Shown piece after piece: positions 30,290-32,834 of a stretch of 43,600 nucleotides of DNA. How positions within the stretch are numbered: position 1 is the stretch's first letter; each line of letters starts with the position of its first letter. Source of the stretch: Terriglobales bacterium (lineage in GTDB: Bacteria > Acidobacteriota > Terriglobia > Terriglobales > Acidobacteriaceae); NCBI GenBank assembly GCA_030038475.1, contig JASHOU010000023.1, forward strand, positions 1 to 43,600, given 5' to 3'. The notes beneath the pieces were generated by a model. The model was not told the DNA's origin. It did no database searches and saw only the letters and a list, made by a program, of their open reading frames with translations. The translations under genes and the position numbers were made by a program.

Positions 30290-30787
30290 ATGCCCGAGAA
30301 TAGTTTCGATATCGTCAGCAAAATTGATCTTGCGGAAGTCAACAACGCCATCCAGCAGGCGATGAAGGAAGTTACCACTCGATTCGATCTGAAGGATTCG
30401 AAGTCAAAGATCGCGATGGAGGGCAACGACGCCATCATGCTGCACTCCGCAGATGAATTCAAACTGAAGGCGGTGAACGACGTCTTTCAGCAGAAACTGG
30501 TCAAACGCGGCGTGCCCCTTAAGGGCTTGACCTACACTCCATTCGAAACCGCCGCCGGAAGCACGGTGAAGCAGAAAGTCTCCATCCAGCAGGGGATTCC
30601 GATCGAGAAAGCGCGCGAGATTGTGAAACTGGTCAAGAATTCGAAAAAGAAAGCGCAAGCATCGATCCAGGGCGACCTGGTGCGGGTCAGCAGCAAAGAT
30701 CGCGATACCTTGCAGGAGATCATCGCGATGGTCAAACAGCAGGATTTTGGCATCGACTTGCAGTTCACAAATTACAGAACCAATTAG
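30290..30787 (+). CDS. yajQ: YajQ-family nucleotide-binding protein
   Basis: A 165-residue protein that matches the whole YajQ (UPF0234) family: MPENSFDIVSKIDLAEVNNAIQQ at the start, TRFDLKDSKS, KRGVPLKGL, QQGIPIEKAREIVKLVK, VRVSSKDRDTLQ, and the end DFGIDLQFTNYR. The fold has two ferredoxin-like halves. A cyclic di-GMP effector role is reported in Xanthomonas; RNA/nucleotide binding is the more general description. Here it is the first gene of a likely operon with the polyprenyl synthase, whose GTG start lies 11 bases after the stop. Confidence 0.95.
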   Translation: MPENSFDIVSKIDLAEVNNAIQQAMKEVTTRFDLKDSKSKIAMEGNDAIMLHSADEFKLKAVNDVFQQKLVKRGVPLKGLTYTPFETAAGSTVKQKVSIQQGIPIEKAREIVKLVKNSKKKAQASIQGDLVRVSSKDRDTLQEIIAMVKQQDFGIDLQFTNYRTN

Positions 30788-30798
30788 CGCACAATTTC

Positions 30799-31785
30799 GT
30801 GAGCACAACCGCCATCAACGGCAAAGAAATCTTCGATCTGCTGCGCGACGACATTCTCGCGATCGAAGAGGAATTCGGGCGCGACACGGTCTCGAATGTC
30901 GCGGCCATCACCGAAATCGGCGAGTACCTGCGTGCCGGCGGAGGCAAGCGAATCCGTCCCGCGCTGTTGCTGCTGTCGGCCAAACTGCTCGGTTACCAGG
31001 GCACCGGCGCGGTCAAGCTGGCGACCGTGGTCGAGATCATCCACACCGCTACGCTCGTCCACGACGACATCATCGACGAGGCCCAAACCCGCCGCGGCCG
31101 TCCCGCTGCCAACACGCAGTGGGGCAATTCGATGTGTGTGCTGGCCGGGGATTGGCTTTACATGCAGGCTTTCAAAATCGCGGTGCAGGAGCGCAACTTC
31201 CGCATCCTCGACGCGCTGATCGAACTGACCCAGCAGATGGTGGAAGGTGAACTGCTGCAGATGGAAAAACTCGGCCATCTGATTTCCCTGCCCGAACACC
31301 TCGACCTGATCTATCGCAAAACGGCTTGCCTGTTCTCGGTGTGCATGAGGGTCGGCGGCATCCTCGGTGGCGCGAGTGCGCAGCAGGAAGAGCGGCTAAG
31401 CCAGTACGGACGCGATCTGGGATTAGCCTTCCAGATCGTCGACGATATGCTCGACCTGACCGCTTCCGAAAGCGTGCTGGGCAAACCCGTCGCCAGCGAC
31501 CTGCGTGAGGGCAAAGCCACCATGGCCGTAATTCATGCTCTGGAACGCTGCACATCATCCGAGCGAAACCAGATCGAAACCGTTCTCCACGACCGCGCGT
31601 TCAACGGCGTCACCCACACCGATATTTTGGCCATTCTCAACCATTACGGTTCTCTCGAGTTCGCCTCCAAAGAGGCGGCCCGCTACGCCGAGTCGGCCCG
31701 CAACGCCATCTGCATTTTCCCCGACTCGGAGATCAAGCGCGCGCTGTTGTGGGCTCCAGAATACGTAGTGGCGCGCGAGAAGTAG
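30799..31785 (+). CDS. Long-chain trans-polyprenyl diphosphate synthase
   Basis: A 328-residue E-isoprenyl diphosphate synthase that elongates farnesyl or geranylgeranyl diphosphate with isopentenyl diphosphate, probably for the menaquinone or ubiquinone side chain. The first Asp-rich motif is DDIIDEAQTRRG (~89-100) and the second is VDDMLD (~214-219). GGGKRIRPALLLL is the diphosphate-binding segment. Small residues before the first motif suit a long-chain (octaprenyl-like, IspB) product, but chain length is not certain. It starts with GTG at 30799, 11 bases after yajQ, so the two are co-transcribed. Confidence 0.93.
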   Translation: MSTTAINGKEIFDLLRDDILAIEEEFGRDTVSNVAAITEIGEYLRAGGGKRIRPALLLLSAKLLGYQGTGAVKLATVVEIIHTATLVHDDIIDEAQTRRGRPAANTQWGNSMCVLAGDWLYMQAFKIAVQERNFRILDALIELTQQMVEGELLQMEKLGHLISLPEHLDLIYRKTACLFSVCMRVGGILGGASAQQEERLSQYGRDLGLAFQIVDDMLDLTASESVLGKPVASDLREGKATMAVIHALERCTSSERNQIETVLHDRAFNGVTHTDILAILNHYGSLEFASKEAARYAESARNAICIFPDSEIKRALLWAPEYVVAREK

Positions 31786-31862: not shown

Positions 31863-32834
31863 ATGACCGATTTGCTCTCATCGATTTCGCATTATGGCTA
31901 CTTTTACCTCGCAGTGGTGTGCTTCGCCGAGGCAATCGGCCTTCCGCTTCCTGCGGCGCTCGCGCTACTCACAGCCGGAGCGGTTGTACCTTATCGCGAC
32001 CTTCATCTCTATCTCGTCGTCGTCGTCGGTGTGCTGTCCATGATCGTTGGCGATGTCATCCTCTATTTCACGGGCCGCGCCAGCGGGTGGGCGTTGTTGG
32101 GACTTTTATGTCGCGTTTCGGCGAATCCGGAAACTTGTATTCTGCGCTCGGCAGAATATTTCTACCGCCGCGGCAAGCAAACTCTGCTTTTTGCCAAATT
32201 CATCCCCGGCATTAACAGCATGTCTCCTCCGCTCGCCGGCAGCATGAAAATGCGACTTGGCGACTTTTTGCAATTCGACGCCGTTGGAGCCTTCCTATAC
32301 GTCGGAACATATTCGCTCGTCGGCTATCTCTTCAGCGACGCTCTTCGCGCCATTACCCGCGGACTCCGCTCTGCAGGCTTTGCTGCCGAAATGATCTTCG
32401 CGATCGGACTTGGGGCCTATGTCGTCTATCGCATCTGGATCTACCGCAAATACCGCCTGCTCGATGTGATTCCGCGCGTGCCGGTCGAGGAAGTCGCGCG
32501 CCGATTGATGTCGGACCATGCGCAGAACCTGCTGATTGCCGACGTTCGCAGCCACGGCTATTACGACGCCGACTCCGAGCGCATCGCCGGTTCGATCCGC
32601 ATCGAACCCAACAACCTGGTCGAAGAGATCAAGAACCTTCCCAAGGAGCGAGAGATTTATCTCTACTGTACTTGAGCGCGCGAAGCCACGAGCGCCCGGG
32701 TGGCGCAACAACTGCAACAACTCGGATTTAAGGTCTTCGTCATCGCTGGCGGCCTGCGCGCCTGGCGCAAAGCCGGAAACGCCCTCGAGCGGGTTCCAAA
32801 CGATGACCTCGTGAAGCTGCCAACATTCACTTAG
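31863..32834 (+). CDS. DedA-rhodanese fusion with an in-frame TGA at an active-site position: probable selenoprotein
   Basis: Read through TGA at 32673-32675, the frame is 323 residues and ends at TAG 32832-32834. A DedA/SNARE-associated membrane domain (~1-200) has the hallmark LLFAKFIPGINSMSPPLAG and several helices. A cytosolic rhodanese domain follows (VPVEEVARRLM, LIADVRSHGYYDADSERIAGSIRI). The active-site segment reads EIYLYCT-U-AREATSARVA. Relatives of this fusion carry Cys at the TGA position (C-S/T-C-P-N-E-A). After it come 52 sense codons with conserved rhodanese character (LGFKVFVIAGGLRAWRKAGN). A hairpin follows the TGA at SECIS distance. If TGA is a true stop, the protein is 270 residues and lacks the end of the rhodanese domain. 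There is no clear ribosome-binding site at ATG 31863. Fusion and read-through frame are seen directly; selenocysteine insertion is inferred. Confidence 0.75.
32673..32675 (+). other. In-frame TGA, candidate selenocysteine codon
   Basis: It is codon 271 of the DedA-rhodanese frame, two residues after the catalytic-type Cys (C-T-U). It is the only stop between 31863 and the TAG at 32832. Confidence 0.7.
32692..32706 (+). promoter_or_regulatory. Candidate bacterial SECIS hairpin
   Basis: GCGCC and GGCGC form a five-base stem with the loop CGGGU. The loop begins 22 bases after the TGA, and a G is in the first two loop positions. These traits agree with the bacterial SECIS model (a short stem, small loop with early G, 16-37 bases from UGA). 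A competing stem, GCCAC/GTGGC (32685-32689 with 32700-32704), is also possible. Short stems arise by chance in GC-rich DNA, so this is supportive only. Confidence 0.5.

Follow-up and report, generated by a model that had tools for sequence, protein, structure and literature searches.

Proteins that join a DedA membrane domain to a rhodanese domain are already known, as fusions within COG0586 (PMC10127716) and as PA1209 (PMC12893004), in the parts of these papers that we cite. Selenoprotein rhodaneses are catalogued as well: the accessible part of a 2026 review (PMC13188914) lists the family NF041203 (rhodanese_LYCAU, 'rhodanese-related (seleno)protein') as rhodanese form 3, with a CxU motif. 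Here we describe a gene that would unite the two, a DedA-rhodanese fusion with one in-frame TGA codon, in a 43,600-nucleotide stretch (the window) of contig JASHOU010000023.1 from a Terriglobales bacterium (assembly GCA_030038475.1; 4.46 Mb in 216 contigs, 98.4% complete). A first-pass annotation made from the letters of the window had proposed that this TGA is read as selenocysteine (Sec). Taken as a whole, the evidence is best explained by a 323-residue membrane selenoprotein, a reading that we hold with high confidence. The TGA is almost certainly read as Sec, and we consider insertion of Sec at residue 271 close to certain. With this gene the prokaryotic selenoproteins would gain a membrane form fused to DedA.

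The frame opens with ATG at 31863, is interrupted once by TGA and closes with TAG at 32832-32834, leaving 52 sense codons after the TGA, exactly as first annotated. The TGA stands at residue 271 in a C-T-U motif (Cys269, Thr270; local context Y-C-T-U), and the Pfam Rhodanese match crosses it. A standard gene caller would stop at the TGA and report a DedA protein with a cut rhodanese. We searched 300 genomes of the same taxonomic family, with a match in 291, and assembled 132 homologue rows from 30 loci of this search, 22 loci of named Acidobacteriota relatives and 80 fetched sequences, some species being present twice; the last two named-relative loci, in Aquimarina and Cellulophaga, matched the rhodanese weakly and were left out. 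Codon 271 is TGA in 111 of the 132 rows and Cys in 21, with no other residue down to approximately 34% identity. The TGA is therefore aligned with a Cys of homologues, as in known selenoproteins, and occupies the second Cys of a C-x-C motif, as had been proposed; this motif is read from our 21 Cys rows and not from the fusion papers.

Removal of two rows at contig ends (L040, L072) and of duplicates over a 105-nt stretch left 114 rows: 81 with TGA at 49–100% identity, 12 with TGA at 34–38% and 21 with Cys. Random damage to the frame downstream of the TGA was looked for in relatives, and a second stop in codons 272-312 was found in 0 of the 93 distinct TGA rows. Residues after the TGA such as S277, R279 and W301 are conserved, and the Cys forms run full length. 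For the 276 pairs formed by 24 sequences of the genus, the ratio of nonsynonymous to synonymous differences per site (pN/pS) was 0.211 over residues 1-200, 0.228 over 201-270 and 0.199 over 272-323, by a simple count in which synonymous differences are high (pS 0.56–0.62). The constraint on the codons after the TGA equals that on the codons before it. One genome of the same genus also holds a diverged second TGA paralogue (L118, G276:C171:8821-9777; 54%), whose stretch after the TGA resembles the main copies of the genus and looks like gene conversion.

The same arrangement extends beyond the family. In a sample of 396 genomes from across the phylum, a match at 1e-25 was obtained for 71. Of the 71, 27 belong to other families, and in 22 of these, spread over 11 families, the match contains a single TGA. 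This sample gave 28 further rows, 25 with TGA (23 from those 22 genomes and two from the own family) and three with Cys. The motif used by our script missed three of the 28 (L219, L222 and L223); L219 has TGA and was kept, and L222–L224 are the Cys rows. The phylum-wide set therefore comprises 93 + 25 = 118 distinct TGA rows.

Strong additional support for Sec comes from a conserved hairpin downstream of the TGA that resembles a Sec insertion sequence (SECIS) and that the first-pass annotation did not mention. It was found by comparison of codons, not by folding of single sequences. With the TGA numbered 1-3, GCGCC (20-24) pairs with GGCGC (30-34), enclosing the loop CGGGU in the window. Both arms are identical in 93/93 distinct TGA rows and 0/21 Cys rows, although three Cys rows can still pair all five positions with other arms. 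The loop is CGGGT in 72 of the TGA rows, CGTGT in 19, and CGAGT and CGTGC in one each. Conservation reaches the synonymous level: codons +6, +7, +9 and +10 (Ser AGC, Ala GCC, Val GTG, Ala GCG) have a codon entropy of zero across 81 rows, against a median of 1.59 bits for 63 conserved columns. The codon that follows begins with C in 93/93 rows even though it may encode His, Gln, Leu or Arg, a pattern suggesting that selection acts on the RNA. In draws that keep the protein and each gene's own codon usage, five pairs arise by chance in a mean of 6.6% and a maximum of 17% (81 genes); because the rows are related, we claim no overall probability for the hairpin.

The published limits for a bacterial SECIS (bSECIS), as given in the accessible part of PMC13188914, are an energy of at most -7.5, a loop of 3–9 nt with G in the first two positions and a spacing of 16–37 nt. 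Across the 93 rows the hairpin alone has -7.6 to -7.9 kcal/mol, a 5-nt loop with G second and a spacing of 21 nt; the window's own (5 bp, -7.6) falls within all four limits as published there, for energy narrowly. Folding from position 19 gives the hairpin pairs a mean probability of 0.78 across the 81 TGA rows and 0.99 across the other 12, against 0.06 for the 21 Cys rows. Across the phylum, all five pairs form in 110 of 118 TGA rows, the top three pairs and a G within the first two loop positions being present in every one. At pair 21-33 the C-G is exchanged for U-A, G-C or G-U, each in a single row, and two rows have lost the pair; pair 23-31 is a U-G wobble in one. This near-invariant element is a simple five-pair SECIS candidate.

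Bases closer to the TGA can form another stem, GCCACn/nGUGGC. We rejected it as the SECIS and regard it as a competing fold that the sequences avoid forming in full. Among the 81 rows its outer variable pair is present in 38, the inner in 38, neither in five and both in none; among the 12 TGA rows the counts are four, six, two and zero, whereas both pairs occur in 5/21 Cys rows. The Fisher value for avoidance is 9e-18, ignoring the relatedness of the rows; in rows that share ancestry, we read these counts as signs of selection against a misfold. With a ribosome positioned on the UGA, part of this fold would be occluded. A separate observation concerns the base before the TGA (codon 32670-32672), which is T in 80/81 main-group and 11/12 second-group rows, mostly as ACT; other families of the phylum frequently have C or G instead, perhaps a local context effect on recoding.

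The machinery search suggested by the first-pass annotation recovered selA, selB, selC and selD in the source genome, each above its cut-off. The tRNA-Sec scores 68 bits (cut-off 47), and ARAGORN agrees (tRNA-SeC, anticodon tca); SelA, SelB and SelD score 533, 377 and 361 bits. The genome's own SelD (L017, G000:C204:62519-63454) is a further selenoprotein gene: it carries an in-frame TGA (motif AAGU) with a stable stem-loop after it (48 nt, -21.9 kcal/mol). Among 145 of the 291 matched genomes, those among the matches listed, 89 have the TGA form. In this set selB (E < 1e-64) occurs in 77/89 TGA genomes compared with 8/56 genomes without TGA, where genomes are classed by stop count, the no-TGA class is read as Cys in 21 rows rather than in every sequence, and the selB list holds 141 genomes over the cut-off and two just under it against a tally of 143 over, with at most two possibly missing. 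tRNA-Sec was checked in 27 genomes of the phylum sample, namely 24 with TGA (22 of other families and two of the own) and three with Cys. It is over the cut-off in 23 of the 24 TGA genomes; two of the Cys genomes have it and one does not. TGA homologues accordingly occur in other Sec-decoding organisms. Several genomes (G077, G037, G452, G416, G530 and others) contain more than one tRNA-Sec match above the cut-off, two or three in all; the additional matches, most of them at 50–53 bits, could represent second selC genes, copies arising from the assembly, or tRNAs for serine.

Two Cys forms, in G056 (100% complete) and G100 (90%), are nested within the TGA clade, and neither genome has SelB or tRNA-Sec, which offers a natural experiment. 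On a FastTree tree that omits the codon-271 column (114 leaves), Fitch parsimony gives four changes between TGA and Cys, with the root state undecided and several inner nodes weakly supported. Sec is probably ancestral and Cys derived, because both TGA groups share the hairpin in one register. G165, of the same genus and 99% complete, has selB and no close DedA-rhodanese match (best 7e-20); here the gene may have been lost while Sec decoding stays.

The neighbourhood is also partly conserved (Table 1). Of 16 TGA loci sampled in other genera, 12 have a DUF520 gene and a polyprenyl diphosphate synthase gene directly upstream, and the nested Cys-form genome G056 retains both; neither was found within 6 kb in two TGA loci of the 34–38% group and one Cys locus of the 43–48% group. 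The downstream NTP (nucleoside triphosphate) transferase and HAD genes were matched only in loci of the window's genus.

Table 1 Features of the DedA-rhodanese locus in the window.
Feature	Positions	Strand	Details
DUF520 gene	30290..30787	+	PF04461; adjoins the polyprenyl synthase gene
Polyprenyl diphosphate synthase	30799..31785	+	PF00348; upstream neighbour
DedA-rhodanese gene, putative selenoprotein	31863..32834	+	323 residues, predicted Sec at 271
VTT (DedA) membrane domain, residues 30-155	31950..32327	+	Pfam PF09335, 40.9 bits (gathering cut-off 33.9)
Cys83 codon	32109..32111	+	Cys in 110/110 rows having a letter there
Cys92 codon	32136..32138	+	Cys in 110/110 rows having a letter there
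Rhodanese domain, residues 210-303, spans the TGA	32490..32771	+	Pfam PF00581, 45.7 bits (gathering cut-off 22.2)
Cys269 codon, place of the rhodanese catalytic Cys	32667..32669	+	aligns with Cys of 6mxv (solved rhodanese-like protein)
TGA codon, predicted Sec271	32673..32675	+	
SECIS-like hairpin, five pairs, loop 32697-32701	32692..32706	+	21 nt from TGA to loop

The rhodanese domain also matches rhodaneses in the PDB, both by sequence and by the fold of an AlphaFold model. The mean predicted local distance difference test (pLDDT) score of this model is 58.6, with ten-residue blocks within 201-310 at 66–88; because the model is weak overall, we took no distances from it. It places residue 271 in the loop joining strand 264-268 to helix 275-286. 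In the 112 rows tabulated, Cys83, Cys92, Asp227, Arg229, Cys269 and Trp301 are invariant where a letter is present, Cys269 being Cys in 112/112. On inspection by eye the Cys pair at positions 83/92 was not seen in the genome's three other DedA matches, and the pair therefore seems to accompany the rhodanese. One of these other matches (G000:C166:3444-3766; L229, L230) spans two overlapping frames, as if the gene or its assembly contained a frameshift. Stretches rich in Arg and Lys near 84-105 and 190-198 suggest, by the positive-inside rule, that Cys83/Cys92 and the rhodanese face the cytoplasm.

From these features a working scheme can be drawn. Ribosomes would translate the DedA (VTT) domain and the first part of the rhodanese and then reach the UGA, where the hairpin, starting 16 nt past it, would recruit SelB with Sec-tRNA. 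Sec would enter two residues after the rhodanese Cys, yielding Y-C-T-U. A C-x-U pair is suited to forming a selenenylsulfide. Cys269 would accept an atom of sulfur or selenium, or else a pair of electrons, which Sec271 would then resolve as a selenenylsulfide. This would probably take place on the cytoplasmic side of the membrane; Cys83 and Cys92, both invariant in the DedA domain, are candidate partners. We give about even odds to such a relay of sulfur, selenium or electrons at the membrane through Cys269/Sec271.

Several explanations without Sec have to be weighed against the selenoprotein. The TGA could reflect a decayed gene, through a recent nonsense mutation, or a miscalled TGT/TGC, and many of the named relative sequences are indeed metagenome assemblies. 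A read error cannot explain the TGA, because the same codon recurs in 118 distinct sequences; the TGA sits at this codon in 111/132 rows and 25 further ones, 23 of them from other families, the downstream codons are constrained like those upstream, and the hairpin is conserved at the synonymous level, so that we attach almost no weight to decay or error. A true stop, giving a functional 270-residue DedA protein with a cut rhodanese and an untranslated remainder, draws on the fact that TGA ends 6 of the 28 long open reading frames (ORFs) of the window and hence functions normally as a stop in this genome region. Partial termination at Sec codons is common in any case. We nevertheless consider a true stop very improbable, given the pN/pS of 0.20 after the TGA, the retention of S277, R279 and W301 and the full-length Cys forms. 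Decoding of UGA as another amino acid, by a suppressor tRNA or a reassigned code, would equally keep the frame open, as would any code that reads TGA; however, Cys is the only replacement, TGA terminates other ORFs, a tRNA-Sec with anticodon TCA is present and the hairpin tracks TGA and not Cys, which makes this option barely credible.

Other observations weigh against Sec insertion. selB was not found in 12 of the 89 TGA genomes; seven of these have tRNA-Sec, and the five without it are 65–85% complete. In the phylum sample, G594 carries TGA and lacks tRNA-Sec, and G323, G493 and G506 score only 50–51 bits. One or two lower hairpin pairs are missing in 8 of 118 TGA rows; the lowest pair is lost in seven rows with Ala for Ser and one other, and their own folds differ. 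Two divergent rows exceed the bSECIS energy limit (L180, -6.4 kcal/mol; L202, -5.5 kcal/mol), and the minimum hairpin probability among the 81 rows is 0.04. A search of Rfam found no known SECIS, its one match being a chance match on the other strand. The 48 nt of the window's own gene slightly favour a competing structure (-11.7 versus -10.4 kcal/mol). Five single-sequence folds were not stabler than shuffles (z 0.26 to 1.42); because none of the five stretches stood out, such folding is uninformative here. Against these points stand the conserved codon, the four sel genes, the open downstream codons and the hairpin, and the earlier proposal of Sec insertion is upheld by them.

A different alternative accepts the selenoprotein and disputes its role: an ordinary sulfurtransferase rhodanese could regulate, or be anchored by, a DedA domain acting as an undecaprenyl-phosphate (UndP) flippase. 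The upstream polyprenyl synthase in those 12 of 16 loci would suit this, as would Glu23, which matches E39 of Escherichia coli YghB. E39 and D51 of YghB we take to be the acidic residues of the first re-entrant helix. Arg130 and Arg136 of the second re-entrant helix are named as COG0586 UndP flippase residues in the part of PMC10127716 consulted. In one approximate alignment at 24% identity, YghB D51, R130 and R136 correspond to Ala32, Lys112 and Asn118, so that three of the four flippase residues are changed and the COG0586 UndP flippase set is not retained. The position of Sec two residues after the catalytic Cys would point to redox chemistry over plain sulfur transfer. We regard the sulfurtransferase–flippase combination as possible, though doubtful. 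Bolder, and in our view rather unlikely, is a membrane selenoenzyme whose lipid-transporter fold serves as a relay for redox equivalents or sulfur/selenium at the cytoplasmic face, or is gated by one, with Cys-Thr-Sec exchanging electrons or chalcogen with Cys83/Cys92; it would be an old Acidobacteriota trait that turned to Cys about four times as Sec decoding was lost.

We found no published DedA-fused rhodanese selenoprotein in a literature search that covered neither supplements nor most subscription journals, so an earlier listing is possible; the word 'DedA' is absent from the main text of PMC13188914, PMC9312934, PMC12013277, PMC2398784 and PMC5029168. One study counts three selenoprotein families and four selenoproteins in Acidobacteria, unnamed in the passage concerned. 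The one Acidobacteriota genome tested in the relevant part of PMC12013277, that of Occallatibacter riparius, is reported to have three known and no new selenoprotein genes; either this strain is without the gene, or the gene was missed or counted as known. DedA-dependent selenite uptake in Ralstonia metallidurans, mentioned second-hand in the portion of PMC11422209 that we cite, is a lead that we do not use as evidence.

Compared with the closest described systems, the rhodanese half resembles NF041203, which likewise has a C-x-U site and matches residues 201-308 (E 2.2e-22). That profile has 126 positions and so lacks the DedA part, and the window protein stays below its cut-off of 115 bits, with 79 bits (74.5 in the genome search); none of the 16 genomes tested passes it. 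One genome that also has the DedA-fused form contains a 145-aa rhodanese frame with one in-frame TGA (L231, G027:C1:45654-45995; 106 bits to NF041203), maybe a standalone relative. By its listed name, TsoB (NF045694, 'rhodanese/DsbD fusion-like selenoprotein') also pairs a rhodanese selenoprotein with a part resembling a membrane protein, but the listing in PMC13188914 gives it the motif UxxxxU and a DsbD-like part instead of DedA. E. coli YghB (DedA, COG0586) shares the membrane domain, including a Cys at the place of Cys92, and differs in having no rhodanese, beyond the residue changes given above. The described DedA-rhodanese fusions share both domains, in the same order for PA1209 as far as the cited parts of those papers go, and the window protein differs from them in having a predicted Sec in place of Cys. 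The first-pass claim of a new selenoprotein therefore holds in part: CxU rhodanese selenoproteins, to which the rhodanese half is akin, and DedA-rhodanese fusions were already known, whereas the DedA-fused membrane form of the selenoprotein appears to be new.
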